Source: a virus. Taken from it: 54,369 bases of DNA. How positions within the stretch are numbered: position 1 is the stretch's first letter; every line of letters starts with the position of its first letter. The translations under genes were made by a program, and so were the position numbers. Below are positions 5,158 through 54,369 of the stretch, one piece after another. The DNA is taken from the IMG/VR virus record IMGVR_UViG_3300033148_002840, positions 1 to 54,369 of that record, one strand, 5' to 3'. Under the pieces are notes generated by a model, which saw nothing but the letters and a program-made list of their open reading frames with translations, did no database searches and was not told the DNA's origin.

Positions 5158-7537
5158 CTGTACGAAATGCGATCTACACAAAGGTGCCCACACCCCCTGT
5201 CTTTGGGGTCGTGGTGATCCCGGTGGTGTCATCATCTTCGGACAAAATCCCGGTGCCGTTGAGGACCGCGAGGGCAGCGTTTTCATTGGGCGGTCTGGTA
5301 AGCTTCTCGATATGTATCTAAAGGTGTCGAGGCTTGATAAGCATCCCGTCTATATCTCGAATGTCGTGAAGTGTTTGACGCCTGAAAATCGGCCGCCATC
5401 TGGCGCTGAGTGCAAAGCTTGTCGGGAGTATGGGGCCGAAGAAATCGAGCAGTGTAAGCCGCGGGCGATTTTGTGTTTGGGGCGGGTCGCCGCAGAGAGC
5501 ATCCTAGGGAGGAATATCGGGCCACTGTCAGCAGCCAGGGGGCAGCGCTATGATCTAAATGGGGTTCCACTATTGGTTACTTATCATCCCGCGTTTTTGA
5601 TGAGGCCGCAGGGGCGACGACTGGTTGATGAGGTTACTGAGGACTATCGGAGAGTGGAGGCGCTGCTTTCTGGGACGTTGCCGGAGGGAGACGCGGAGAT
5701 TGTTCCAGCGTGGGAAATGGACCCCGTTGAGCTTATGGGTGCGAAATCTCTAGTTGTGGATATTGAGACTACATGCTTAAATCCCCGAGAGGCTGGGGCC
5801 AGTATTTTACTCGTTGGGGTTGCAAACATCAATAAACCACGACGAGTGTTTGGCTTTCTTCCTTATTGTCCTCAACATGCTAAAGATGGAGAACTTTGGG
5901 TTAAGAAGATTCTTGAAGGCGCATATACGATCATCGGCCACAACCTAAAGTTCGACGCCAGTTGGCTGAAGATTCATTGGGGAATTGACCTGTTTAGCAA
6001 GGAATGGTTTGATACCTATTCGGCATGTGGGCTCATCTTTCCAGAGTCGCCGAGCCTCAGTCTCAAGGTAATCGGTCCAACTGTAACCGGAATTCCGTAT
6101 GATGAGACCCTAAAGGACTTTGATCCGGGGGACACAGCGAATCTGGAAAGACTCCTAAGTTACTGTGGCAAAGACGTTTACATCACTGGACTGGTGCACG
6201 ATTGGTGTCAACTGCGGTTGGCTAAGCGGAAGCCACTATTGGATTTCACACAAGAGTTGACGAGAACTGTCGCTAAGATGCAGCTATTGGGGGTGAGGAT
6301 TGACCCCAAGGCATTTGAGTCATTGGCTGTGGCAGTGCATAATAGACTGGATACTGCTGCTGAGGCTCTCGGTAAGATTCCGAATGATTTTGATGTCGGC
6401 CTCAAGCAGAAGAAGGATGGAAGTTGGGGGCTATCGACCAAGAAAACCTATGAGTATATCTTTTCGATACTTGGGCTACCAGTGGTGAAGTTGACGGCGA
6501 AGCGCAAACCATCGCTTGACGATGAGGCGCGTAGTGAACTGGAGGCGCTTGACCCCACGGGGTTTGTTAAACAGTATGGCACTTTTCGGAAGGCACAGAA
6601 GCTACTGGGTACTTATATTTTGGGGATTCAGAAGCATACCACGCTGCCACGATTGTACCCCGAGTTCCATATCGTTAAGGGAGATCGTGGGGGCACCGTA
6701 TCCGGCCGCATTACGGTTACAAAACCCGCCATACAGACTACCCCACGGGATGACCCTGAATTGGCCAAGCGTTTCAAGAATATTTATGTGGCCAGAACGC
6801 CAGGGAACCTGGTGATAAATGCTGACCTTGCGCAGATTGAACTGAGGATAGCTGCTGATCTCGCGAACGATGAAGCGATGCTTGCAATCTTTCGGAATGG
6901 GAGAGACCCCCATAAAGAGGCCGCGGCAAAGCTCTTTGGGGTTTCCTTCGATGAAGTTACAGATGGAATGCGGCAACGAGGAAAAACCGCCAACTTTCAG
7001 ATCATTTATGGGTGCTCTGCGTATGGGCTACAAACGGAATTGGCTAAGGCGGGCATTGTAGAATCTGTGCCATCTTGCCAAGATATCATTGACCGATGGT
7101 ATGCGGAATTTCCTGACATTAAAGCGTGGCAGGAAGAGTGGTTAGCTCGAGCGAGAGTAACTAAGCGCGTAACGACACCGCTAAAGCGCGTGCGAACCGT
7201 ACCTAATATCGCAGCGCATGGGCCTGCCGGTAGACACGAGGAACGAGAGGCGTTGAACTTTCCGATTCAGGGCGGGGCGACAGAGGTTTCGAACGTGGGA
7301 CTCATCTTAGTTGAACAGATGCCGAAAGAACCCCATGAACTTTCTCCTATGTTCGTGGTGTACGATTCGATCGTGTTTGATGTAGGGAGTGCTGACGAAG
7401 AAAGGGCTACCCTACTTGCATCTGGAATTGAGACACTTTTCTCTAGAGATGTTCCCCAGTATCTCACGGATAAGTTCGGTTGGAAACTAAAGGCCCCTAT
7501 CGTAATGGACGTTGAGATCGGAGACTGTTGGGCGTAG
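5144..7537 (+). CDS. polA: Uracil-DNA glycosylase / family A DNA polymerase fusion
   Basis: 797 aa. Residues 1-190 are a family 4-type uracil-DNA glycosylase, with an N-terminal CTKC pair and further Cys for an Fe-S cluster, GQNPGAVED, and TYHPAFLMRP as the His motif. Residues about 200-385 are a 3'-5' exonuclease (VVDIETT, GHNLKFD, YCGKD). The rest is a DNA polymerase I palm. Motif A is DLAQIELRIAA. Motif B is RGKTANFQIIYG, with Phe at the dideoxy-discrimination site. Motif C is VVYDSIVF instead of the usual VHDE. It would replicate phage DNA and read or remove uracil in cis. It overlaps the zinc-ribbon gene. Confidence 0.9.
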   Translation: MRNPNCTKCDLHKGAHTPCLWGRGDPGGVIIFGQNPGAVEDREGSVFIGRSGKLLDMYLKVSRLDKHPVYISNVVKCLTPENRPPSGAECKACREYGAEEIEQCKPRAILCLGRVAAESILGRNIGPLSAARGQRYDLNGVPLLVTYHPAFLMRPQGRRLVDEVTEDYRRVEALLSGTLPEGDAEIVPAWEMDPVELMGAKSLVVDIETTCLNPREAGASILLVGVANINKPRRVFGFLPYCPQHAKDGELWVKKILEGAYTIIGHNLKFDASWLKIHWGIDLFSKEWFDTYSACGLIFPESPSLSLKVIGPTVTGIPYDETLKDFDPGDTANLERLLSYCGKDVYITGLVHDWCQLRLAKRKPLLDFTQELTRTVAKMQLLGVRIDPKAFESLAVAVHNRLDTAAEALGKIPNDFDVGLKQKKDGSWGLSTKKTYEYIFSILGLPVVKLTAKRKPSLDDEARSELEALDPTGFVKQYGTFRKAQKLLGTYILGIQKHTTLPRLYPEFHIVKGDRGGTVSGRITVTKPAIQTTPRDDPELAKRFKNIYVARTPGNLVINADLAQIELRIAADLANDEAMLAIFRNGRDPHKEAAAKLFGVSFDEVTDGMRQRGKTANFQIIYGCSAYGLQTELAKAGIVESVPSCQDIIDRWYAEFPDIKAWQEEWLARARVTKRVTTPLKRVRTVPNIAAHGPAGRHEEREALNFPIQGGATEVSNVGLILVEQMPKEPHELSPMFVVYDSIVFDVGSADEERATLLASGIETLFSRDVPQYLTDKFGWKLKAPIVMDVEIGDCWA

Positions 7538-7547
7538 GAGATTAACA

Positions 7548-8087
7548 ATGTCACATGATTTTGGTTGGGCGTTTGAGCAGATGAAAAGGGGGGCGCACGT
7601 TTGTCTCCCTGCTGGTCGTGATAGTGATGAGTATTGGTATATCAAAGGTGGAAAAATATGGGTCCATCAGGACTCTCTCTCCGACGCCCCCCTGGGTTTT
7701 TGCATGGGACCAGTTATAGCGTCAACTAATTGGGAACTATACGAACCCAAACCCAAGGACGTATCACCCCCATTCAACGCTTTGGATGTAGCGCGATTGG
7801 TTGGGGAGGTCCCTACTGATGAGTTGGTGGCGATTCAAGATGCCGCTCGCGGGGAGCTAGCGAAGCGGGAGACCCCCCGCTTTTGCCACAGCTTTACATG
7901 GGCCGTAGGTAAACTGTTTGTTGGGCAGACAGTACAATATGTTAAATGGAATCGTTTAGCTTACGCTTGGTATGTGGCCCGAAACGGGCGGTTGTACCTA
8001 AAAGACAAATACGGTGGGGTAACATTTTGGTATCCTTCTATAGATGAGATGCGGTCCGTTAGCGGTTGGCGGTTATATACCAAGTGA
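7548..8087 (+). CDS. Tandem Tad2-like (DUF2829) protein, possible anti-Thoeris sponge
   Basis: 179 aa, start at the ATG after GTAGGAGATTAACA. Residues 5-68 (FGWAFEQMKRGAHV ... NWELYEP) have the DUF2829 layout: FxxAxxxxxxGxxV, a run of short strands, and a closing W-E/R-L-Y. Residues about 115-178 (FTWAVGKLFVGQTV ... GWRLYT) repeat it. Tad2 proteins of this family bind the gcADPR signals of Thoeris defence. A two-domain version is unusual. The family match is by pattern only, so the function is inference. Confidence 0.5.
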   Translation: MSHDFGWAFEQMKRGAHVCLPAGRDSDEYWYIKGGKIWVHQDSLSDAPLGFCMGPVIASTNWELYEPKPKDVSPPFNALDVARLVGEVPTDELVAIQDAARGELAKRETPRFCHSFTWAVGKLFVGQTVQYVKWNRLAYAWYVARNGRLYLKDKYGGVTFWYPSIDEMRSVSGWRLYTK

Positions 8088-30214: not shown

Positions 30215-30466
30215 CTAGTCTCCTTGCTTTTCCATGTCTTTTCGTATCCAATTGATATCCCGCTCCAATACGCTTAATCTGGCGGGTATCAACTGCACGA
30301 TTTCGGTTAGTGACTTTTGGGTGTTTTCGAGTGTGGATACTCGGGAGATCGTGGAGCCCCAGGCAACTCCAATTCCAATGAGAATCACGGCAACCGTGAT
30401 GATCCATGGAATGGGGTTACGAAGCCAGCCCCGAGAGTTCGCATTAGTGTGGTTTCCGTTGGTCAT
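30215..30466 (-). CDS. Membrane-anchored coiled-coil protein, 83 aa
   Basis: One transmembrane helix near residues 18-38 (IPWIITVAVILIGIGVAWG) is followed by a predicted coil (ISRVSTLENTQKSLTEIV and LSVLERDINWIRKDMEKQ). The topology fits a pinholin-like or inner-membrane lysis accessory. The stop lies inside the next gene's ribosome-binding site, so they are translationally coupled. It overlaps the DUF115-like gene. Confidence 0.55.
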   Translation of the reverse strand: MTNGNHTNANSRGWLRNPIPWIITVAVILIGIGVAWGSTISRVSTLENTQKSLTEIVQLIPARLSVLERDINWIRKDMEKQGD

Positions 30467-31301
30467 AAAGGCCCTCCGAGCGTTCGTGATCTATGTCGAT
30501 GTTGCCCCATTCCTGGAGGGCTTGGGCGACGGCCTCATCGTAGGACATCCGGGGGAAGGCCGTTAGAGAGCTTCCTTCCGTACAATTATACACCGTGAAT
30601 CCTACCTTGTCAAAGTAGGGGCGGAGAGCCGTAAGTCGTGTGTTGACAAGGGTATACATCTGGTTGTTTCGATCGGCGGTGTGCTGGTCACGGGTTTGTG
30701 CGAAGTGGTAGGGTCTACCGGGAGACATTTTGAAGTCGGTGCCCAGGAGATAGACCGTTTTGATGCCCAGGATGTAGAGGAGCTTGAGAGCGGGAAGGAG
30801 GACGCTACGGCCCGGGAAGCCACCTTCGGGCGTGCCCCCCCAACAGAAGGAGTCCTCAACGAGGAAGTCCGCGGCCTTGAATATGTTGTTTCGCATGAAG
30901 AAGAAGACCCCAGGGCATTTTTCTATGGTGGTGGCCATTAGTTTCCACGCATCGCTGTCGAACACCTTTCGGTCGGCGTTAACCGCCGGGGTGAATTTTA
31001 GGATGGTGGGATCGAGCCAAATGGAGCGGAGGAATTGACAGGGGGAATCGAGGCCGACCCAAAGATGGGGGCGAATGGTCTTGGGCGCGTTGTTCATGGC
31101 TGCAATCAAGACTCCTGGGACCTGAAGTTTAGTTGTGTCTACGCTCTTGAGGGATGGGCCGCAGCCGACCAAGAACGCACTATGGCCCGCATAGAGTCCA
31201 TCGAGATTTGTGGGTCGGAATCTACTGGTGTAGAGCGCGGAGTGGATATTGGAGTGCTTAGCTATGATCTCGTGGTCGCGGGTATGCGGGCGAGCACTCA
31301 T
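30444..31301 (-). CDS. DUF115-like (MptE/Maf-type) glycan or flagellin-associated enzyme
   Basis: 285 aa. GHSAFLVGCGPSLKSVD near the N-terminus and a downstream LGIKTVYLLGTDF resemble DUF115 proteins, a Rossmann-like family linked to glycosylation. The N-terminal domain of the glycosyltransferase at 44398-45723 is of the same type (FIIVGKG, ASEIVYIGCDG). An odd find amid virion genes; possibly a virion sugar modifier. Catalytic role not established. Confidence 0.65.
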   Translation of the reverse strand: MSARPHTRDHEIIAKHSNIHSALYTSRFRPTNLDGLYAGHSAFLVGCGPSLKSVDTTKLQVPGVLIAAMNNAPKTIRPHLWVGLDSPCQFLRSIWLDPTILKFTPAVNADRKVFDSDAWKLMATTIEKCPGVFFFMRNNIFKAADFLVEDSFCWGGTPEGGFPGRSVLLPALKLLYILGIKTVYLLGTDFKMSPGRPYHFAQTRDQHTADRNNQMYTLVNTRLTALRPYFDKVGFTVYNCTEGSSLTAFPRMSYDEAVAQALQEWGNIDIDHERSEGLYDQRKPH

Positions 31302-34765: not shown

Positions 34766-36235
34766 TTAGCTCACGCTATACTGGTCGGAAACCTCTTCGA
34801 GTAGGGTCCAGACCGCGTTATTGAATGGCGCCTCGGACGCGAACTCCGCGTAGACACTGAAGGGCGCTTCCATCAGTGAGGAGCGCTGTGTAGCGCCCGC
34901 AGAGCTGCCCGCTTGGTAAGATACCGGGCTAAAGACACCACTGGGGCCGCCACCTGAACCCGTCAGATCGTTAATCCATTCGACGCCTTCAAGGCCGTCC
35001 GGTGTATAGCGAACGTTCGTCGGCTCATGGATACCCCACGCGCGTTCTGGCGTGGCGATTCTTGACGGTTTGATCGGGATTACGGTCTCACCAAAGGTGA
35101 CGTTATCACCTGTGGACTTACCGCCACCCGCCGACAACACACCGAGACCCGCAGAAGGTGACCACATCTGCATACCCTTGAGGGCTTCGGCGCGAGCGTG
35201 ACAGACACCCATTGAGGTGACGATCACGGTTGGGAGTTGACGGCCAGCCGTCCACATCTCAGTCAGCAATCGCTCAAACATGAGATTGCTGGCAGGACGC
35301 TTGTTGGTGCCACCTCCATTATCGACCCAGGCCCGCAACTCAGGGTTGTTGGTGAGATCGAGATTGAAGACGGTGCCGGTGTTTACGATCCAGTCCGGCA
35401 GACCAGAGCAAGCATTGCTGTTGGAGCCTGATGGGTCCGCCATGTAGAGACCATACTCCGTTGCCGTGGACAGCGTAACGGTCGTCGTACCATCCTCCGT
35501 CAGAACCAGGTCCACGGTTCCATTCGTAGACTTCGGGTTCACGGATTGGATGATGAAAACACCACCGGAAAGCTGACTATAGGTGGCCGTTGCGGAGATA
35601 GACACACGTTGACCGCGACGGAAGCGACCCGGAGGTGCATCCGTCAGTGTAATAGTATTCGTGTAGTCATTGTTAGGCGTCAGGTCGTTGAACACAATGT
35701 TGGAGCCGGGATCATAAATAGTCCCCAACTTCGCAGACTTGCCTACGTGCATTAGGGTAGCCATGTCTTGGGCGACGTTGAACGCCTGATCGGTGACAAC
35801 CATTGTTGCGATGTCGCCGAGGGTTGGACCCAGAGTCATACCCTTCAACTGATTGATGTCTAGTGCGCAATTGCCCATCAGCCACTTAAGGTAGATCATC
35901 TGGGTTAGGAATGTAGGTTGTGTCGCCTTACCCGCGCTCGGAAAAACCGTAGTTTCGGGAAGCATCGGAATACTGCCAACACCACCAGTGGCATGATTAA
36001 GCCCGTGGAAGTATTGGACACCGGAGCGTCCCATCCGAATGCGGTGCTTGGCAACGAAAGTGCCCGCACTGCCCGCAGCAGGGGTCGTGTCATCACGGCC
36101 CAACTGAGTCACCGCCTTGGTGTTCAGTTGCATGTTACGAGTAACAGGATCGACGTGACTCAGCACTTCAGTTAATGCTGGAGCAAGTCGCTCCTTCAGT
36201 AGCGGGCTGATTACCTGAATCGGGTAAACAGCCAT
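34766..36235 (-). CDS. Major capsid protein (HK97-fold)
   Basis: 489 aa. The gene order of portal, scaffold, then this protein is characteristic. The sequence has a helical N-terminus (LLKERLAPALTEVLSHVDPVT) and a spine-helix-like segment (TLGDIATMVVTDQAFNVAQDM). An inserted beta domain at about 215-260 (FRRGQRVSISATATYS) is followed by the A-domain-like VIVTSMGVCHARAEAL. Expected to form the shell. Confidence 0.8.
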   Translation of the reverse strand: MAVYPIQVISPLLKERLAPALTEVLSHVDPVTRNMQLNTKAVTQLGRDDTTPAAGSAGTFVAKHRIRMGRSGVQYFHGLNHATGGVGSIPMLPETTVFPSAGKATQPTFLTQMIYLKWLMGNCALDINQLKGMTLGPTLGDIATMVVTDQAFNVAQDMATLMHVGKSAKLGTIYDPGSNIVFNDLTPNNDYTNTITLTDAPPGRFRRGQRVSISATATYSQLSGGVFIIQSVNPKSTNGTVDLVLTEDGTTTVTLSTATEYGLYMADPSGSNSNACSGLPDWIVNTGTVFNLDLTNNPELRAWVDNGGGTNKRPASNLMFERLLTEMWTAGRQLPTVIVTSMGVCHARAEALKGMQMWSPSAGLGVLSAGGGKSTGDNVTFGETVIPIKPSRIATPERAWGIHEPTNVRYTPDGLEGVEWINDLTGSGGGPSGVFSPVSYQAGSSAGATQRSSLMEAPFSVYAEFASEAPFNNAVWTLLEEVSDQYSVS

Positions 36236-39841: not shown

Positions 39842-41656
39842 CTAGGGTAAGGATAGCGCGTCTTCTTGAACGCGACCCATAGAACGCTGTTTGCGGCGTT
39901 GGACGGCCGCATAATAGCCCACGTCTCCTGCATTATAGACGTGTACAGGGTTCAAGCCCATCGCTTCCATTTCCTCCTCTGTCGGGAGGTTATCGGGCTC
40001 CTTGGACTCCTCACGACCGAGACCAGCGCCAAGTGCCTCCAAAACATTTACGAGGGCATCCAGCATATCATCATGCGTTTGACCCAAGCTTTCCGCGGAG
40101 AAGGTCTGAATCTGTCGGATGAGGTCTTCTTGCCCGCGCGCCCTCAGTTTAATTCTATTCGCGTCAAACCGCCATTGCAAGCCCAAGATTCGGACGCCCT
40201 TGCCCATCGCTTTACCATAGTGCTCTAGGGTACGAATGGTGGGGACGTGATCCTTGCGGGCTCTGGCCTCCCGAATGTGGTCTTGTACGAGGTCTAGAGC
40301 GAGCTTTTGAAAGGCGTTGGTTTCTATGCCTAGGACTACAGCTTTGAAGCGGGCCGCAATCATCAAGGCACGGAGAAGGACGCGACCGGGGTGCTCACGT
40401 CCTCTCCAGGTATCTAGGACCCATAGGGTGTTATCGGCGTCAACGCCCCCTGTGATTATGGAGGAGTAGTCCGCGGTGGTCCGACGCGAGATGGCAAGGT
40501 CTACGCCCACACCAACCAGGAGACGTTCCTTCCAATCAGAATAGGACTCCTTTTTCTCGGTAAGGACATTAAAGGTGAAGCGTTTTTCGCCTTCGTCGAG
40601 GACGCGATAAGTGTGCCGAATGGGACGGAAATCAAGGGTGGAGGCCTCACCGCGAGCGGGCTCATTTTGGTATTCTGCGTAAAATGATGCCAGTCCGAAG
40701 CCCTGCACACGGCCATCCGGGGAGCCCCCTCCCATCATATAACGAATGTCTTTCATGGGGTAGCGATCTGGCCACGCAGATGTGTCCTCACCATCATCGC
40801 TTTTGGTAAGTAGCTTATAGATGCCAGTCGCGTATCCACTGAACCGCGTATCCTCATGGTGGACTACCCGATAGAGAAGAGCCCTGGGGACCAGCAGAGT
40901 GCCAATCCAAGACAGATGGCAGCTAGTTGAAACAATTGGCAGGAAAGTCTGAAAGAACCAATGATCGAACTTGGCTAAGAGGGCATCGCTGCTAACGCCC
41001 TCATCGCGCTCGGGATCATCGAGGATGGCCCATGTTGTACGCAGGCCACGTTGGTGGGAGCCAACCGAGAAGTTCTGTACGAGCGCTCGGTTGGGTAGTT
41101 CTAAGCGGCCAGGGCTCCAAGCTCTACCGGAGAAACGCTTAGCTTTGAGGCGACCCATATCGGGCTCGAAATCACGCATGAGAAGTTCATTTTCCTCGAA
41201 CTGTAGCTGCATGGAGGCCATACGGAGGTTTCCGAGGCGTTCATTTGACATTACAAGGAGGACTTCAGTTCGCGGGCGGGAAAGCATCAGGAACATTGGC
41301 AGTCGCCAGCTAAACTTTGTGCTCTTTGCGGAGTCACGAAAACCTGCGATCGCAGAGCGGTAGCGTGATGAGATCAACAGGTCCCACTCATGGTGCATGG
41401 GAGCGTTCTTAAAGGTATAGAGGTGTTTGTTTCCGGACCACCCTTTGAGGTAGTATTCCTCGAACCAATTGAGGCAGAGCGCAAAGAGATTGGGGTTAGC
41501 TATACGCAAGAATGGGGAGTCTAAGTCCGCCCAGAGTGAGCAGGCGGCGACACGGGCCTGCCGACGGCCGTCCGCGGTCAGGTGCGGGTAGTCATCAGGC
41601 AGTGGAAAGAGGTCGCCCTTAGTTCTATGAACTTTTTGTGTCTGGGGGGTCGTCAC
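39842..41656 (-). CDS. terL: Terminase large subunit
   Basis: 604 aa. The ATPase domain has the Walker-A variant AGFRDSAKST and Walker B AILDDPERD. The nuclease domain has GVGVDLAISRRTTADYSS, LGIETNAFQ and THDDMLDAL, giving the conserved acidic residues of the RNase-H-like terminase fold. It cuts and pumps DNA into the procapsid. It overlaps the upstream small gene by 32 bp. Confidence 0.9.
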   Translation of the reverse strand: MTTPQTQKVHRTKGDLFPLPDDYPHLTADGRRQARVAACSLWADLDSPFLRIANPNLFALCLNWFEEYYLKGWSGNKHLYTFKNAPMHHEWDLLISSRYRSAIAGFRDSAKSTKFSWRLPMFLMLSRPRTEVLLVMSNERLGNLRMASMQLQFEENELLMRDFEPDMGRLKAKRFSGRAWSPGRLELPNRALVQNFSVGSHQRGLRTTWAILDDPERDEGVSSDALLAKFDHWFFQTFLPIVSTSCHLSWIGTLLVPRALLYRVVHHEDTRFSGYATGIYKLLTKSDDGEDTSAWPDRYPMKDIRYMMGGGSPDGRVQGFGLASFYAEYQNEPARGEASTLDFRPIRHTYRVLDEGEKRFTFNVLTEKKESYSDWKERLLVGVGVDLAISRRTTADYSSIITGGVDADNTLWVLDTWRGREHPGRVLLRALMIAARFKAVVLGIETNAFQKLALDLVQDHIREARARKDHVPTIRTLEHYGKAMGKGVRILGLQWRFDANRIKLRARGQEDLIRQIQTFSAESLGQTHDDMLDALVNVLEALGAGLGREESKEPDNLPTEEEMEAMGLNPVHVYNAGDVGYYAAVQRRKQRSMGRVQEDALSLP

Positions 41657-42942: not shown

Positions 42943-42982
42943 AAAAAAAGCCCGTAACCCCCTTCTGCTCAAGGGGTTACGC
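42943..42982 (-). terminator. Rho-independent terminator for cargo operon
   Basis: Read leftward, CGTAACCCC...GGGGTTACG is a nine-pair stem, extendable by two pairs past one bulge. GGC and seven T follow (the A-run at 42943-42949 on the plus strand). It ends transcripts coming from the sulfotransferase gene. Confidence 0.8.
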
Positions 42983-43200: not shown

Positions 43201-43815
43201 TCATGGCCTCCACTCTCGGCTGTACCCAAAGGTATTGAAATCTTCGTCGCACCACTCACGGATGAGAGCGGCACGCTCCTCATTCATGTAGTGTGTCCAG
43301 GACTTTCTTGCATGAGAAGGATTCGACACGGGAACTTTAATGTCTGGCTGCCAAAATGGCAACGTTATAAGGTCCCTCTCTAGAGACTCCAAGCGCAGCG
43401 TTCTGTCGAGTTTAACATCGCGCAGCCATCGCGTTTGCGTGATCGCAAGATGTCGCCCTACAAGCATATGAGGTTTAGTCAACAAGAAGTGTAAAAACTT
43501 CGTGAAATCCGTGGTGCCTAATTCCACGTAACAATACTTCTGTTTGAGGGTCTTTGTCGGGTCTACGGTTGTTGACCACCAAAGGGAGACCGCGCGAGCA
43601 TAGGGATTCCGCACAATTGACCATGTAAAGAGGTCGCGGTACTCCTTGGGCACTACATTAGAGTGGAATGGCCTTGGGCGAGAGCCTTTTTTTAGTACCC
43701 CATTTACCAAAAAGTAGCCATCCGGGAACACCTTGGGGAGTAGCTCCCACATACTATTGGTGGCACATTTGGTCGTGGAGACGAATACGAATTTATCGTG
43801 TGGGCTAATAAACAT
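43201..43815 (-). CDS. Sulfotransferase (PAPS-dependent)
   Basis: 204 aa. The 5'-phosphosulfate loop TKCATNSM is at residues 15-22, and the 3'-phosphate motif SIVRNPYARAVSLW at 66-79. Both fit the sulfotransferase family that modifies carbohydrates. The last cargo gene before the terminator. It likely sulfates the sugar assembled by the neighbouring glycosyltransferases, using host PAPS. Confidence 0.85.
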   Translation of the reverse strand: MFISPHDKFVFVSTTKCATNSMWELLPKVFPDGYFLVNGVLKKGSRPRPFHSNVVPKEYRDLFTWSIVRNPYARAVSLWWSTTVDPTKTLKQKYCYVELGTTDFTKFLHFLLTKPHMLVGRHLAITQTRWLRDVKLDRTLRLESLERDLITLPFWQPDIKVPVSNPSHARKSWTHYMNEERAALIREWCDEDFNTFGYSREWRP

Positions 43816-43816
43816 A

Positions 43817-44395
43817 TTAGGGTCTCACAAAAAACCAGGTCATTGTCTCTGGGGGGCCGAGAAGCAGAGAACCAGGGTTGTTAGAGAGATATTTTTCTAC
43901 TGCTTGCCGGACACGCCAATTAAAGGTCTTGGCGTGTCTACGGGGGTTGTCTATATCGTGTCCACAAACCACGCCACCATGTTTTACCTTTGGAGTCCAT
44001 ACTTGAATGTCACTGAGAACTTCAGGATATTGGTGCCCGGCGTCAATAAATACGAAATCGAAGAAATCAAGGGGAAAATCTTTTGCCGCAAGTAGGGAAG
44101 GCTTTTTAACTACGGAGCGTCTATTGCTAAATGGTGATGTTTTATCTAGGGCTTCTCGGTGCACTTTATCCCACCACTTTTGTGGGCGGAACCCCTCTCG
44201 CAATTCACAATCTAATGTTTGATTGGTTTTCCACGTATCAACCATTACAAGATGTAAATTTGCAAAAGTGGTAAGGAGCCACTTGGATAATGCACCACGG
44301 TAGACGCCTATCTCAGCAGCATTTCGCACATCTTTTGGCGCCCAATTAAGGTGATCTTTGATGGCGTGCGCTACATCTTCTTGCGGCGTAGTCAT
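43817..44395 (-). CDS. Class I SAM-dependent methyltransferase
   Basis: 192 aa. AEIGVYRGALSKWL is a SAM-binding motif I (ExGxxxG), and VMVDTWK provides the acidic end of strand 2. FDFVFIDAGHQYPEVLSDIQ and HGGVVCGHD complete a fold like the Methyltransf_24 group seen in glycan clusters. It probably O-methylates sugar residues. It lies one base from the sulfotransferase gene. Confidence 0.8.
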   Translation of the reverse strand: MTTPQEDVAHAIKDHLNWAPKDVRNAAEIGVYRGALSKWLLTTFANLHLVMVDTWKTNQTLDCELREGFRPQKWWDKVHREALDKTSPFSNRRSVVKKPSLLAAKDFPLDFFDFVFIDAGHQYPEVLSDIQVWTPKVKHGGVVCGHDIDNPRRHAKTFNWRVRQAVEKYLSNNPGSLLLGPPETMTWFFVRP

Positions 44396-44397
44396 TA

Positions 44398-45723
44398 TTA
44401 TACTTTCCTCCCGCTACTGCCTTCGATGCCCCACAGGTGGACGGCATAGGGGTCTTTCTTTCCAAGCATCTCTATACGGGCGGCTTCGGGCGCTTTCCAA
44501 AAGGCCCGCGCTTTCTCACGTTCCCGCCAGGACCACGGATAAAAATAACTCCACGGTAGGATGCGCATATCACTATCGCCGTTTTCTGTAAAGAGTCCAG
44601 TTAGCATACTTGGTCCGAAGCGTGTGCGAGGGCGGCGCTCCGTCTCCGGCGTTATCTTCGGTATTCTGGCAAGGCACCGCATGAACGCATTACTGTGGCG
44701 AATAGCACCCATACACCCATTGGTTAGCTTCTTAGAGCCCTCGTGGAGTGTAGTCCAGGCAGGTCCCTTCTTGCGCAGCGGATCAAAACTTTTACGTGTT
44801 ATAAGATCAGTATTGAGGGTGACACCACCATAATGATAGAGTAGCCAACAGTATAAGATATCGGCGCGTTGACAAAGTTGTTCACAACTAGACCATGCGG
44901 GGACCAAATCATCCTGAAATGTTGGGGGGCGCCCCGTCCACAGATTGATCTTCCAACGAGGATTATGCGCTCGAAAGGCGTCCATAATACCTTGAAGCCA
45001 ATTGGGTTTAGGCCCCAACCACACAAAGTGCGCGATCCGTGGTATAATGTTGGGTAAATCGGCGTCCTGAACGTACGTGTAGTCAATGTCTAATAGTTTG
45101 CACTCTTCTTCTTGCAGGTTGCGGAGTTCTGGAAAGATACCTTGCCCTCGACCACTGGATAGTATGGACAATCGGGGATCATAGGGACTTCCTAGTTTAG
45201 AAGGAGTGTTTCCGTCGCACCCAATGTACACGATCTCGGAGGCGCCACAAATCCACGCGAAATGTGTGGCTAGATGACACACGCTTCCGGCCTTATATAA
45301 TGACCCGGACACAGCCGCTTCCTCTCTAGAGAGTTTGAGTAGACTTTTATCCTTGTATCCACTCCAATCATATCCAACGATTGTGCCATGTTCAGTGGGA
45401 TTGAGGTCCCGCGCGAAGATACGACCTCGATTGTGAATGTGTTCGATGCCTGCTGGCGGGTTCTTGGTCGGTCCCTGGGGTAAGACAAGTGTACTCGTTC
45501 TATTCGATGTGAGGAGCACCTTCATGGATTTGTGGGCCGTTACCAAGAAAGTCTCAATGGATTTAGTCACCTTATCTTCTAGGAGGACAGCATCATTCAA
45601 GAAGATGATGGGGTCCGTTATCTTCGTTAGGTTCTCATAGTCGTAGGGGGTAATGCCCTTACCCACAATTATGAATCGGTAACCAGCGTACTTATTGAGA
45701 TAATCTTTGAGAGTTAGCATCAT
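44398..45723 (-). CDS. DUF115-like domain fused to a GT32-type glycosyltransferase
   Basis: 441 aa. Residues 1-224 are a DUF115-like Rossmann domain (YRFIIVGKGITPYDY, ASEIVYIGCDG). Residues 225-441 are a sugar-transferase domain (IAHFVWLGPKPNW, ADILYCWLLYHYGG). The DxD metal motif reads NTD at 304-306 in VTLNTDLI, so its first Asp is replaced by Asn, although the second is kept. Fusion of these two domains is not a common phage architecture. The start is 45723 or 45720. Confidence 0.75.
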   Translation of the reverse strand: MMLTLKDYLNKYAGYRFIIVGKGITPYDYENLTKITDPIIFLNDAVLLEDKVTKSIETFLVTAHKSMKVLLTSNRTSTLVLPQGPTKNPPAGIEHIHNRGRIFARDLNPTEHGTIVGYDWSGYKDKSLLKLSREEAAVSGSLYKAGSVCHLATHFAWICGASEIVYIGCDGNTPSKLGSPYDPRLSILSSGRGQGIFPELRNLQEEECKLLDIDYTYVQDADLPNIIPRIAHFVWLGPKPNWLQGIMDAFRAHNPRWKINLWTGRPPTFQDDLVPAWSSCEQLCQRADILYCWLLYHYGGVTLNTDLITRKSFDPLRKKGPAWTTLHEGSKKLTNGCMGAIRHSNAFMRCLARIPKITPETERRPRTRFGPSMLTGLFTENGDSDMRILPWSYFYPWSWREREKARAFWKAPEAARIEMLGKKDPYAVHLWGIEGSSGRKV

Positions 45724-46388
45724 TCACTCGCTCTTGGGGCGCCAACTTCACGAAAAGTCTTAAATAGGTGCAGCCCAAATGGGGGAACCCCATCTACCCA
45801 CTTGGATTTAGTGCTATCTAGAAGGATTTTGCGCTCCGTTAGGGATGCTTTCCAAAACTTCCTACAGTCTTCAGGCTCCGGTAAAACATTGAAATAGTGT
45901 GCGGGGAGAAGCTCCATCATTCCATGAGAGCAGCAGTAGTGTACTAGCCGGGCACCCCTCCCTGTATGGTGTTTGGATAGTTGCTCCTCACGCTTCATGT
46001 AGACATCAACCAAGAATCTGAAGGCCGCGCATCCCTGTTGCCCACCTAAGACGCCATTATAACAGGCGTTCTTAGTTTGATGCCAGGCATAGGTAAACGC
46101 CGTGTACTTCAATAGCGGGTTGAATGATCGGAAGGTTATCACATCGGAGTCAACATAGACGCCGCCGTAAGTCGAAAGCAACCAATATCGTATTATGTTA
46201 CTCTTCTTTGAGAAGATGGGGTTTTCATCACACCGACAGCGGAGGGCCGTTGGGAACCTGTCAGGAACGTCCTCCCACAATTTTACTTCCCAATCGGGGT
46301 GAAATTGTCGAAAGGTCTCCATGTTCGCGGTCGCCCATGCAGGGGGTGGCGACCCCAACCAGATGAAGTGACATAGTTTTGGGATCAT
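45720..46388 (-). CDS. GT32-type glycosyltransferase, 222 aa
   Basis: MIPKLCHFIWLGSPPPAW at the start and NIIRYWLLSTYGGVYVDSDV, with an intact DxD motif (DSD at 80-82), define a sugar-nucleotide-dependent transferase. The sequence is related to the C-terminal half of the next gene, so the two probably act in turn or on different linkages. Starts at MIPKL rather than the upstream ATG-less frame. Confidence 0.85.
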   Translation of the reverse strand: MIPKLCHFIWLGSPPPAWATANMETFRQFHPDWEVKLWEDVPDRFPTALRCRCDENPIFSKKSNIIRYWLLSTYGGVYVDSDVITFRSFNPLLKYTAFTYAWHQTKNACYNGVLGGQQGCAAFRFLVDVYMKREEQLSKHHTGRGARLVHYCCSHGMMELLPAHYFNVLPEPEDCRKFWKASLTERKILLDSTKSKWVDGVPPFGLHLFKTFREVGAPRASE

Positions 46389-46389
46389 T

Positions 46390-46668
46390 CTAAGGGTCCC
46401 CACTCTCGGTTGGCTCCTCCTGAATTATACCCTCTCGTAAGAGATAGTAGTAGAACGCTTCCAAGAGACACGATGGCGACCAACTTGCCAGGTGGGGTGC
46501 CGTCAATTCGCAGCCATGTAGCGCCATTGGTTCACCGGAGGCGATCTTTCGTAGGAAGTCTTCCCAGTGTTTGGGCATCTGTGCTCCTCCAAGGTCATCG
46601 ACGTTACTGTTCGTTATGGTACCATTCTGACTACCTAAAATTCTAGGCAACAGTGGCTTAACCCGCAT
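46390..46668 (-). CDS. Hypothetical cargo-operon protein, 92 aa
   Basis: The start is the ATG after GGAGATAACATA. A helical C-terminus (HLASWSPSCLLEAFYYYLLREGII) follows an N-terminal basic stretch. No catalytic motif. It lies directly upstream of the first glycosyltransferase gene. Confidence 0.55.
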   Translation of the reverse strand: MRVKPLLPRILGSQNGTITNSNVDDLGGAQMPKHWEDFLRKIASGEPMALHGCELTAPHLASWSPSCLLEAFYYYLLREGIIQEEPTESGDP

Positions 46669-46685
46669 TATGTTATCTCCAGGCA

Positions 46686-46949
46686 TTAGCAAGCGGCGTG
46701 CTCCAGGGGCTCATACAGCGTGAGGAAGTCACGTTCCTTGACTATCGAGCGATAGCCATCCTGATCGGCCACAATCCAATCCCCAGGTTGAATTGGAATT
46801 GGCATAACGATATGGTCAACATTATCGGATATGAGTCTGTAGACCGTTCCCGCAAGAGCACTTCGGTCCTCTAAGACACCAGAGATTCCCCTACCAGGCT
46901 GAAACTGTACTGCACTAACTACCTCTCGACTTCGGAACTTGGCCATCAT
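46686..46949 (-). CDS. Small phage-type protein, 87 aa
   Basis: VVSAVQFQPG...IPIQPGDWIVADQDGYRSIVKERDFLTLYEP is a compact beta unit common among tailed-phage proteins of unknown role. The start follows AAGGAGCCTA. A likely paralogue lies at 39078-39362. Confidence 0.65.
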   Translation of the reverse strand: MMAKFRSREVVSAVQFQPGRGISGVLEDRSALAGTVYRLISDNVDHIVMPIPIQPGDWIVADQDGYRSIVKERDFLTLYEPLEHAAC

Positions 46950-46964
46950 TAGGCTCCTTTAAGT

Positions 46965-47003
46965 TCAAGGTATCTCCAAGCGCAACGTACTCAATACGTT
47001 CAT
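46965..47003 (-). pseudogene. Orphan second copy of protease 3' end
   Basis: ATG overlapping the upstream stop (ATGA) opens a 12-residue frame MNVLSTLRLEIP that ends in TGA. Its last residues equal the end of the protease (LNVLGALRLEIP). At the DNA level, 46969-47000 matches 47351-47382 in 29 of 32 bases. Confidence 0.75.
46969..47000. repeat. Gene-end repeat copy 2 (protease)
   Basis: 32 bases matching 47351-47382 at 29 positions. The copies flank the gene 47000-47347. Confidence 0.85.
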
Positions 47004-47347
47004 ACTTCTACAACCATAAGATTGTACTTTTCCGTTGGCACTGATGGCTTAAAGTTTGGGTACAACGCCCGCACGTCAAAACAATGCTTGGTAAACTTAA
47101 CTGGGTACTTTTTCAACAGCCACCGAGGAAACCAGCGGTCCTTAAAAGCCTGCCACCAATCAGATGGGTGCGATATAGATAGAGCGTCTACCCGTTCGCC
47201 CCAGACGAACCCACGAACCTGCGCAATGATGTCACCTGCTGCGTGTTCCAGGAAGGTGGCCTCCGTCTCACATAGATAACGATCGAGTCTTTGGCTGAGT
47301 CCAACACAAAATTTCTCCAGGCGGACTGTTCTGAAATCGGAATTCAT
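47000..47347 (-). CDS. Hypothetical protein flanked by repeats, 115 aa
   Basis: MNSDFRTVRLEKF...LCETEATFLEHAAGDIIAQVRGFVWGERVDAL, then SDWWQAFKDRWFPRWLLKKYPV. An N-terminal helix and a Trp/Arg-rich block near residues 65-80 are clear. The gene lies between the protease end and an orphan copy of that end, so it looks inserted. The stop/start overlap with the protease is TAATG. No known function. Confidence 0.65.
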   Translation of the reverse strand: MNSDFRTVRLEKFCVGLSQRLDRYLCETEATFLEHAAGDIIAQVRGFVWGERVDALSISHPSDWWQAFKDRWFPRWLLKKYPVKFTKHCFDVRALYPNFKPSVPTEKYNLMVVEV

Positions 47348-48408
47348 TATGGTATCTCCAAGCGCAACGCACCTAATACGTTGAGCGCCGTGTTTGCGAT
47401 CGTTATCTGTTCGGAGCCAGCAAACAACAGGCCAACGAGCGTTGCGCGGCCGTGATCGCTACCTATTGTTACGATTGCACTACCGGAATCGCCGCCCTGA
47501 CTCATAGCGCTCAGTAGAATCTGGTCCTCGAAGGTTGCAATCTTTCCACTACCGTAGTTGACCTTGACGGTAGCTCCCGTGTACTGTACGACGCCGGTTG
47601 TGGTTTCCGTGGTGCGACCCCTCTTGTATACTATATCGCCTGGGAACGCGGGTGCAAAGTCATCTATTGGTGACCAGCCCGTTCCAACAAATTCATCGGT
47701 GATATCATCGAGTTTTGTGGGCATTGCATAGGCGGCGTCTACTAGATTTACGTCGCTTCTAATCGAGGTAGCAATGAGACGAGTTTTGCGGCCCGTAGCC
47801 CACAATACGAGATTCATAACCTTGGTAGCAGCCTTAACAACGGGGCATTTATTAGGCTCCTCACTGAATGATATCGGAATGTACCCGTGTAGCGTTCCAA
47901 TTCTACTAAACGCGGCGAAACCACCATCCGCAGGTCCGGGCTGCAAAATGGCGTCCCCGATCTTGGCGGCATTACTATTGGCTAAGACATGGTTATTGGA
48001 GACAATGACGGGGACTTTTGTGCCCCCCGGGCGCGCAACGAATCCGAACGTCCCGGCTGTAATGTCCTTGTGTCCGATACTCACCCCTGGGAATGCCGGT
48101 CGATGTCGCTTCTTGAGATTAACTGCTTTTGGGGACGCGCTGAGCGCCCAAATGTCACCAACTTCGACGACATCCGTTCTATATGGATGCAGTTTAAGTC
48201 CGCACTCCAATGAGACTTGCGTTGGGATCATTGTCTCCGTGGTTAGCGCACTAGGCGGCAGCTTCTTACGTACAAAGAATACTACAGCTTGTATACTGGT
48301 GGGACGACCACCGCGCTTCTTAGTACCCTTGGCGACCCCTACGATATTGGAGTCGGTCAGGAGTTTACGAATGGTGGCGCTTTTTGCGAATTGGGAATCG
48401 GACTTCAT
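47347..48408 (-). CDS. Chymotrypsin-fold serine protease, 353 aa
   Basis: SNNHVLAN (His140), NLVDAAYA (Asp224) and GGDSGSAIV (Ser308) give the classic triad order of S1-type trypsin-like peptidases. The ordered beta segments around them (VPVIVSNNHVLA, TTGVVQYTGATVKVNYG) fit the double beta-barrel. An N-terminal 100-residue extension lacks a signal peptide. A phage-encoded S1 protease could process virion or host proteins. The leader carries four 8-bp repeats. Confidence 0.85.
   Translation of the reverse strand: MKSDSQFAKSATIRKLLTDSNIVGVAKGTKKRGGRPTSIQAVVFFVRKKLPPSALTTETMIPTQVSLECGLKLHPYRTDVVEVGDIWALSASPKAVNLKKRHRPAFPGVSIGHKDITAGTFGFVARPGGTKVPVIVSNNHVLANSNAAKIGDAILQPGPADGGFAAFSRIGTLHGYIPISFSEEPNKCPVVKAATKVMNLVLWATGRKTRLIATSIRSDVNLVDAAYAMPTKLDDITDEFVGTGWSPIDDFAPAFPGDIVYKRGRTTETTTGVVQYTGATVKVNYGSGKIATFEDQILLSAMSQGGDSGSAIVTIGSDHGRATLVGLLFAGSEQITIANTALNVLGALRLEIP
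47351..47382. repeat. Gene-end repeat copy 1 (protease)
   Basis: 32 bases in the last codons of the protease, repeated 382 bases downstream at 46969-47000. Confidence 0.85.
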
Positions 48409-48422
48409 ATCGTGGTCTCCTC

Positions 48423-48454
48423 TAGTGCTCTAGTGCTCTAGTGCTCTAGTGCTA
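48423..48454. repeat. Four tandem 8-bp repeats in protease leader
   Basis: TAGTGCTC repeated three times plus TAGTGCTA. On the minus strand they lie 15 bases upstream of the protease start, between a TATATA-like box and the ribosome-binding site. Confidence 0.9.
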
Positions 48455-48533
48455 TATATGCCTAAGACCTGCCACTCACTGCCATCATCTCTATTACCGC
48501 TCGTTACAGGGTAGACACTCTTGGGTTTAGGCA

Positions 48534-48734
48534 TTAGGCACCGTCCCTTACACGCTGTAGGAGGTCTATCCTGCCAATGGTCTTGCCACACTTCACGCAA
48601 TAGTAAGCATCATGGTATGGCACCGGCTCCAAACGACCACCACAAACTGAAGCCACTGCCCGACACCGAGGAAGATCACCCTCGCCCGCATCCAGGCGAG
48701 CCTGCGCCTCCAAATATGTCATCTTCTTGGCCAT
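48534..48734 (-). CDS. Zinc-ribbon protein, 66 aa
   Basis: MAKKMTYLEAQARLDAGEGD, then a single CVKCG knuckle late in the protein and an earlier VCGGRL near residue 30 as the other ligand set. The gene overlaps the end of its upstream neighbour by 59 bp. Function unknown. Confidence 0.55.
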   Translation of the reverse strand: MAKKMTYLEAQARLDAGEGDLPRCRAVASVCGGRLEPVPYHDAYYCVKCGKTIGRIDLLQRVRDGA

Positions 48735-49005
48735 GAGTTTCCTCGCAGAACTCTTTTGTTTGATTTATGAAGTCTTCCCAATTCTTTCCACATTCTGGGC
48801 ATCCACCAATCGACTGCATATATTTTGTTGAGAAGATCGTCCCGCACATCGCACACTGGACGACGCCTCTCCTGATTCGTGTGGGACTAAAACGAAGGGG
48901 TGCTCCAGATTGCCGTGCATTTAGGTCGATCTCCACGATAATGTCGCTTTGGTACCCTATTTTAGGCTCTAAACCCCAAATTGTCAACGCAAAAAGCGGC
49001 CCCAT
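48676..49005 (-). CDS. Zinc-ribbon protein, first gene of leftward cargo operon
   Basis: The longest frame gives 109 aa with CAMCGTIF...GGCPECGKNW, a clear zinc ribbon at residues 51-75, and an acidic/Gly-rich tail. A leftward promoter with its -10 at 48959-48964 lies inside the frame. The true start may therefore be downstream, for instance a GTG near 48936, with no visible ribosome-binding site. Confidence 0.6.
   Translation of the reverse strand: MGPLFALTIWGLEPKIGYQSDIIVEIDLNARQSGAPLRFSPTRIRRGVVQCAMCGTIFSTKYMQSIGGCPECGKNWEDFINQTKEFCEETHGQEDDIFGGAGSPGCGRG
48959..48987 (-). promoter_or_regulatory. Leftward sigma70-type promoter of cargo operon
   Basis: Minus strand TTGACA (plus 48982-48987), 17-base spacer, TAAAAT (plus 48959-48964). 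Predicted start near 48952. Confidence 0.65.
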
Positions 49006-49864: not shown

Positions 49865-49880
49865 ACATCCGTTGTGCGGG

Positions 49881-49966
49881 AGTGCCTAGCACCTATCCAC
49901 CAGCTCCAAACGGCCCCGGAGTTGGAGTAGGCGGGCGAAAGACGGGTTCGATTCCTGTCGGGCACT
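49881..49966 (+). tRNA. tRNA-like or decayed tRNA element
   Basis: The 3' part is convincing. The T arm ACGGG/CCTGT encloses TTCGATT (49942-49958), and GGGCACT pairs with AGTGCCT at the 5' end (one G-T). The middle does not form a normal anticodon arm: CTCCAA/TTGGAG leaves a 12-base loop. It may be a tRNA mimic, a decayed tRNA, or an attachment-site-like fragment. Confidence 0.3.
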
Positions 49967-53729: not shown

Positions 53730-54369
53730 ATGTATAAGCTTAGATGTCCAGAATGTAAGAAAACAGATAGATTTCAGGTTGAACAACAGCATGATACAGC
53801 GCGTGCGGAATGCGGGTGGTGTGAATATGTATGGTATCCCCGCTGCCTGCAACCCACCAAGCGGGCTTGGAAACGGGGTTATAAAGTTGTGACTCGTCAT
53901 GGAAGCGGCCAACTGACGTCCTTCTTTTCCGGCACAAAAGACACAGTACTATATCATAAGGGCATCGTAGCCCGCCCGAACGAGGGGTATGGAAAGCTCT
54001 CTGTGTTCGATAGCTTTGAACATGCTAACACTTTTAGATTACAGCACTCCTATCGGGAAAAACTAGAGGGGCAGTCGCATGAAATATGGTTGTGTGATTA
54101 CATGGGGGAGGCCATTGCGGGTGCGAAATCAATCCCAATCGGAACCATACGAACGTCTGCGGTGCGTCTCATAGAGCGTAGGTATCCTGCTCCCCCATCC
54201 GTTCCCCCCAATGTGGTTATATATAGGGGGTGGAAGGTCGTTGCGCGCTGTGGAAATGGGGAGAGAGTTTCATTTGTTATGTCGGATGATCAGGAGGTAA
54301 CATACGAGAAAGATGTTTGGTCACGCCGCTTTCCCCGTGGGTCTCACGAGGACCCGCGCCTCTCAGTTT
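53730..54369 (+). CDS. N-terminal part of join-spanning duplicated-domain protein
   Basis: The start follows GGAGAAGGTAGCC. The full product is 286 aa when read across the join to 335. Residues 6-29 (CPEC...CGWC) are a zinc ribbon. Residues about 50-150 are domain copy 1 (GYKVVTR, LSVFDSFEHANTF, EIWLCDY, GTIRTSAVRLI). Residues about 165-275 are copy 2. The repeat is clear at protein level but the domain itself is unknown to me. Confidence 0.85.
   Translation, partial: MYKLRCPECKKTDRFQVEQQHDTARAECGWCEYVWYPRCLQPTKRAWKRGYKVVTRHGSGQLTSFFSGTKDTVLYHKGIVARPNEGYGKLSVFDSFEHANTFRLQHSYREKLEGQSHEIWLCDYMGEAIAGAKSIPIGTIRTSAVRLIERRYPAPPSVPPNVVIYRGWKVVARCGNGERVSFVMSDDQEVTYEKDVWSRRFPRGSHEDPRLSV
54256..54369. 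repeat. Terminal direct repeat (copy 2)
   Basis: Second copy of the 114-base end repeat. Removing it gives a unique length of 54,255 bp. Confidence 0.95.

Follow-up and report, generated by a model that had tools for sequence, protein, structure and literature searches.

Glycosyltransferase, methyltransferase and sulfotransferase genes

The IMG/VR virus record IMGVR_UViG_3300033148_002840 was analyzed over its whole length of 54,369 bases, i.e., the window. A compact leftward operon was recognized in it, extending from the protease gene (start at 48408) to the sulfotransferase gene (stop at 43201), and all of its named open reading frames (ORFs) are open on the minus strand. The operon encodes two GT32 domains, an N-terminal domain fused to one of them (N-domain), a methyltransferase, a sulfotransferase and a serine protease. 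N-domain, GT32 and methyltransferase were also found together, as a trio, in other phages.

A stand-alone GT32 glycosyltransferase of 227 amino acids (aa) was predicted at 45720..46403 (minus strand; Pfam Gly_transf_sug/GT32, 2e-11). The neighboring gene, at 44398..45723 (minus strand), encodes a 441-aa fusion of the N-domain (residues 1-225) and a second GT32 domain (residues 226-441; GT32, 7e-4). Against PF04488, with a cut-off of 23 bits, the 227-aa protein scored 44.9 bits and the fusion domain alone stayed below at 20.7 bits. The two domains are homologous, with 30% identity over 215 aa (E=6e-25). The active sites were compared with 25 relatives, i.e., 24 from phages and one bacterial, in which the DxD and the Asp of (A/S/C)DxxR were kept in 25/25 and the Arg in 24/25. 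The 227-aa protein has an intact DxD (DSD) and Arg, and the Asp of its (A/S)D is replaced by Asn. In the fusion domain, the DxD position reads NTD (NxD) and the Arg is replaced by Tyr. Because the Asp of the DxD and the Arg are both lost in the fusion, two active transferases cannot be assumed, and catalysis by this domain was, judging from the residues, probably lost. The domain may serve as a scaffold, or the catalysis of the fusion protein may be seated in the N-domain. The original prediction of two GT32-like enzymes thus stands as homology, but one active site is degenerate and a second active transferase is doubtful.

The structure model of the fusion had a mean predicted local distance difference test (pLDDT) score of 84 and a predicted template modeling (pTM) score of 0.82. 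The GT32 part matched the folds of Och1, YeGT, SetA and PaToxG, and weakly that of the PBCV-1 capsid glycosyltransferase. The viral matches included proteins of uncultured Caudovirales, named MptE-like or DXD glycosyltransferase, that align over much of the fusion.

The N-domain had been called DUF115-like from the sequence. Against the DUF115/MptE-like family PF01973 it scored 14.6 bits, below the cut-off of 34.6 (E=0.029), and the profile-profile comparison with DUF115 gave a short core match (E=9e-4, probability 23%). The resemblance is sub-threshold, and the N-domain, weakly DUF115/MptE-like by its profile scores, should carry that label with caution. TAL-effector matches of the N-domain profile were rejected as repeat artefacts by their appearance, and no single stretch passes alone. 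A clearer DUF115/MptE-like gene than the N-domain was found at 30444..31301 (minus strand), within the virion gene block, with a match to phrog_4603 ('alpha-2,3-sialyltransferase'). It is possibly another glycosylation gene. No direct homology was found between it and the N-domain.

The S-adenosylmethionine (SAM)-dependent methyltransferase, 192 aa in length, is encoded at 43817..44395 (minus strand; Pfam 2e-16). Its score against PF13578 (Methyltransf_24), 61.1 bits with a cut-off of 26.3, confirmed the earlier assignment, and it also matches phrog_2675, labelled 'DNA methyltransferase'. The last gene of the unit, at 43201..43815 (minus strand), encodes a Sulfotransfer_2-type sulfotransferase of 204 aa, recognized by Pfam. 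The score against PF03567 was 24.3 bits (cut-off 22). The motifs KCATNS (like the 5'-phosphosulfate-binding motif, 5'-PSB) and RNPYARAVS (like the 3'-phosphate-binding motif, 3'-PB) align with other phage sulfotransferases. The best PDB matches of the model (mean pLDDT 74) were nearly all sulfotransferases, none of them below E=0.1. It is read as a probable sulfotransferase of the 3'-phosphoadenosine 5'-phosphosulfate (PAPS) type.

In other phages, Sulfotransfer_2 genes were found singly or in islands. At one locus (L035), GT32 and sulfotransferase genes lie no more than 1 kb apart. At another (L013:7705-13464), a run of glycosyltransferase-like, NeuB-like, two DUF115-like, methyltransferase, sulfotransferase and NeuA-like genes was seen, by eye except for the sulfotransferase, which was found by profile. 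This island may serve the synthesis of a sulfated nonulosonate glycan by the phage.

The trio in other phages

A scan with three GT32 sequences yielded 80 viral loci, which together with named phages and one bacterial locus made 25 clusters. An alignment of seven GT32 sequences was dropped as too diverse, and a three-sequence alignment was usable. N-domain, GT32 and Methyltransf_24 were found in one ORF at L024 (740 aa) and L027 (650 aa). At L025/L026, the order is an N-domain, then a GT32-methyltransferase fusion, then a second N-domain. In the maximum-likelihood tree, of which the support values are rough, the fused GT32 of the window grouped with L024 and L027 (93/88), and both window GT32s and the fused forms made one group of five (94/90). 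The window methyltransferase and N-domain were closest to those of L024-L027 among the loci fetched. The tree and these closest matches indicate that the trio has a common history, and on the sequences compared the window is a split form of the trio plus an additional GT32. Glycan assembly, as proposed for the operon at the outset, is well supported because the three domains are co-inherited and fused in other phages.

The trio and its GT32 relatives were repeatedly placed near head genes. At L025-L027, the module directly follows terminase, Mu-type portal, major capsid E and Gp36-type genes, and at L024 it lies 3.4 kb past a major head/protease gene. The lineage of phage ct2t2046 comprises 38 loci. 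An FkbM methyltransferase adjoins GT32 in 36 of them, and in 33 the terminase follows downstream at distances from about 1.2 kb upward. In a second GT32 lineage, the terminase follows at 2.6-4.2 kb in 8/11 loci. This head linkage is a pattern and not a statistic, as each lineage counts as one event, the contigs are fragmentary and the head-gene references are few. The window terminase had no match in the records of the trio and of the ct2t2046 lineage, and the backbones therefore look different.

The bacterial scan gave one methyltransferase relative, and 1/46 genomes of that relative's phylum had a distant GT32. A motif-pattern scan gave one match.

Operon layout and the phage genome

Between 48408 and 43201, neighboring ORFs either share a few bases or lie 1-2 bases apart, with the single exception of a 50-base gap. 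The overlap between the two GT32 genes is 4 nt (45720-45723), gaps of 2 nt and 1 nt follow downstream, and the protease gene overlaps a 115-aa ORF by 1 nt. Purine-rich, Shine-Dalgarno-like stretches precede several of the ORFs. A promoter-like site, TTGACA-N17-TAAAAT (11/12 match), was found at 48959..48987 (minus strand) as the candidate start of the unit. An intrinsic terminator with an 11-bp stem and a T7 run, at 42953..42981 (minus strand), separates the unit from the terminase block. In dinucleotide-matched shuffles, an 11/12 promoter and a terminator stem of at least 10 bp each occurred by chance in about 2% of 9-kb strands, and another promoter match of equal quality lies inside the fusion gene on the opposite strand. 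The promoter-like site lies inside ORF 48676-49005 when this ORF is taken in its longest form, which means that either this gene starts later or the promoter is unused. The true start is probably downstream of the promoter. The single leftward unit, with a promoter-like site and a strong intrinsic terminator of its own, was thus recovered. Its position outside the virion genes holds in that the terminator lies between them, but the operon ends only about 350 bp from the terminase-bearing block, on the same strand.

The trypsin-like (clan PA) serine protease (353 aa) is encoded at 47347..48408 (minus strand) and matches phrog_20754 at 6e-48. The His/Asp/Ser triad is kept in the alignment with proteins of a huge phage and Aeropyrum coil-shaped virus, in agreement with the S1-type protease first named. 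In Aeropyrum coil-shaped virus, which is archaeal (locus L112), the protease relative has a putative glycosyltransferase gene at a distance of about 2 kb. A role as prohead protease was considered and rejected, as no recognized prohead-protease family was matched and the gene is unlinked to the trio elsewhere. Immediately upstream of the protease start, at 48420-48460 (minus strand), a short tandem run of the unit GAGCACTA was observed.

The small ORFs, all on the minus strand, are two zinc-ribbon-like ones at 48676..49005 and 48534..48734, the 115-aa ORF at 47000..47347 (phage family phrog_26218), an 87-aa ORF at 46686..46949 (phrog_6363) and a 100-aa ORF at 46390..46692, for which no relatives were found.

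The terminal 114 bases of the record are identical at both ends (1-114 = 54256-54369), i.e., an exact direct repeat, and the record was therefore read as a complete genome, most likely that of a circularly closed phage, with a length of about 54.25 kb. The early genes are rightward and include a family A DNA polymerase, an exonuclease, an AAA ATPase, DUF669 and a member of the uracil-DNA glycosylase family. The leftward virion genes span about 42.8 kb to 18.4 kb and include the SU10-type adaptor family. The terminase large subunit, at 39842..41656 (minus strand), is the first recognized gene of this block, and the ORF at 34766-36235 was assigned by position as the major capsid candidate. No close relatives of the phage were found in IMG/VR or phage records, and scans of IMG/VR by single proteins (the fusion, the GT32, the terminase, the DNA polymerase) gave no matches. 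No integrase family was recognized in the phage, and PADLOC gave marginal matches only.

Two further observations were made outside the operon. The early protein at 7512-8087 (plus strand) showed a weak C-terminal match to Tad2 (Thoeris anti-defence), under the cut-off (E=1e-3). In the divergent intergenic region, a tRNA-like sequence with the T-arm GACGGGTTCGATTCCTGTC and an acceptor-like pairing AGTGCCT/GGGCACT was seen by eye at 49875-49965 (plus strand). Neither ARAGORN nor Rfam called it, and it is a by-eye candidate for a degenerate tRNA or attachment-site remnant.

Function of the cassette and comparison with known systems

We give about an even chance to the reading that the cassette carries out phage glycan assembly, with soluble enzymes that modify a virion protein in the cytoplasm of the host. 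Host nucleotide-sugars would be the donors for sugar addition by the 227-aa GT32 (probably) and the 441-aa fusion. The chain would then be O-methylated by Methyltransf_24 with host SAM and sulfated by the sulfotransferase with host PAPS. The enzymes look soluble, as hydropathy revealed no membrane-like hydrophobic segment in any cassette protein. Families for nucleotide-sugar synthesis, PAPS synthesis, flippase and polymerase were not recognized by Pfam among the phage ORFs. Decoration of the virion is favored because the trio adjoins head genes in relatives and because precedents exist.

Several points weigh against this. Two conserved active-site residues are missing from the GT32 of the fusion. 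With a promoter-like site and terminator of its own, the cassette may be expressed at another time than the virion genes. The GT32 genes of L032 and L035 have other carbohydrate genes as neighbors, and no head gene was recognized there with the few references used. Neither the window sulfotransferase nor the protease was found by phmmer in the trio loci, and the profile likewise found no sulfotransferase. The Pfam sulfotransferase search of the whole trio records was run without a positive control and is not counted as absence. The sulfotransferase and protease thus appear to be outside the shared core. Linkage in relatives had been named beforehand as the refutation test for the operon, and it was seen for the core trio but not for these two genes. 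That a capsid or tail protein is the acceptor and that sulfation takes place is inferred from the genes, as is the sugar itself.

The cassette could instead modify the surface glycan of the host during infection, for superinfection exclusion, receptor masking or mimicry, and this we consider rather unlikely. Serotype-converting phages alter host surface glycans, and sugar, methyl and sulfate transfer are typical steps in the tailoring of surface polysaccharides. The promoter-like site and terminator of the unit are in favor of it, as are the GT32 loci that lie among capsule-like genes (GT1, GT2, GT25, pyruvyl transferase, cytidylyltransferases). However, besides flippase and polymerase, no bactoprenol-linked transferase was recognized, so that the membrane flippase and bactoprenol transferase of gtrABC-type clusters are both missing by Pfam, and the cassette proteins have no transmembrane segment. 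The benefit of seroconversion is clearest in lysogeny, yet no integrase family was recognized. The placement of the trio beside head genes in relatives also argues against a host-surface target.

A neutral or decaying cargo, acquired horizontally, is quite improbable. Its signs would be the degenerate GT32, with two active-site residues lost in the fusion and one in the stand-alone enzyme, and the lower guanine-cytosine content of the cassette, 0.49 compared with 0.55 in the virion genes. But the early genes, at 0.515, are near the cassette value, the DxD of the 227-aa enzyme is intact, and the ORFs are all intact and tightly packed, several with Shine-Dalgarno-like sequences. The module is moreover closest to other phage copies, in a comparison in which bacterial genomes were hardly sampled.

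The phrog_2675 label of the methyltransferase would suit enzymes that hypermodify phage DNA bases with sugars against restriction, as in T4-type phages, but Methyltransf_24 is, to our knowledge, not a DNA methylase family. DNA modification by the cassette is very unlikely: DNA-hypermodifying phage glycosyltransferases exist (Pyle 2024, as cited in PMC12619734) and phage nucleotide glycosylation and sulfation were proposed in PMC10829341, but Pfam found no thymidylate-synthase-like hydroxymethylase or similar base-modifying family in the 52 other phage ORFs, and the substrates of solved GT32 relatives are proteins or glycans.

Beyond glycan assembly on a virion protein, a bolder proposal is possible but doubtful. 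The trio might be an unrecognized mobile module for phage capsid glycosylation, moving between unrelated head gene sets and extended here by a sulfotransferase, and the window phage would then be the first phage particle with a sulfated, methylated glycan. As a sequence marker, the trio, fused or split and beside unrelated head genes, can help to predict particle decoration in uncultured phages. The sulfotransferase turns the sulfation of phage particles into a concrete, testable idea, with a bearing on surface charge, adhesion and clearance. A literature search of partial coverage found no paper describing the trio beside head genes or its sulfotransferase extension.

Phage virion glycosylation has been shown experimentally in few phages. 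Mycobacteriophages Che8, Corndog and Myrna glycosylate capsid or tail proteins with their own transferases, according to Freeman et al. 2023 as cited in PMC12363180 and PMC12619734. These systems are alike in their phage-encoded glycosyltransferases, with a virion protein as the acceptor there and the proposed acceptor here. We know of no DUF115-like/GT32/Methyltransf_24 fusion or sulfotransferase described in them. The Maf (DUF115-type) transferase O-glycosylates flagellin in the cytoplasm (PMC4065374, PMC11339370), which resembles the present proposal in that a self-assembling surface protein is modified there. It differs in that the window N-domain has only a weak relation to MptE/DUF115, and genes for nonulosonate synthesis were not recognized in the phage. 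In PBCV-1, the major capsid protein is glycosylated by a virus-encoded transferase with a weak fold match to the fusion, but PBCV-1 is a eukaryotic virus and the identity in the fold alignment is about 11%.

Among phages, ct2t2046 (MW202462) and its IMG/VR relatives share GT32 and methyltransferase genes upstream of the terminase, a leftward late block and the same divergent plan. They differ in the FkbM-type methyltransferase, the absence of an N-domain and of a recognized sulfotransferase, and the lack of detectable terminase similarity. L024, L025/L026 and L027 have the same three domains and are closest in sequence to the window. Their domains are fused in one or two ORFs, their head genes are others, and a sulfotransferase or protease of the window's kind was not recognized in them. 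Mycobacterium phage Phrappuccino and Microbacterium phage Rasputia carry a GT32-type glycosyltransferase beside more glycosyltransferases and a methyltransferase, and Rasputia also has a PAPS-reductase-like gene. Neither has an annotated Sulfotransfer_2-type gene or an N-domain fusion, and no head genes are annotated in the stretch covered.

The original prediction that no described phage system has this set is correct for the exact set. But the trio recurs in phage contigs, and the multi-glycosyltransferase and methyltransferase cassettes of Rasputia and Phrappuccino, as well as the DUF115-like/NeuA/NeuB-like/methyltransferase/sulfotransferase island of L013, come near to it. Phage cassettes with glycosyltransferases and methyltransferases are thus known, and what is added here is a conserved trio, fused in some cases, that lies next to head genes in unrelated phages and is extended by a sulfotransferase in the window.

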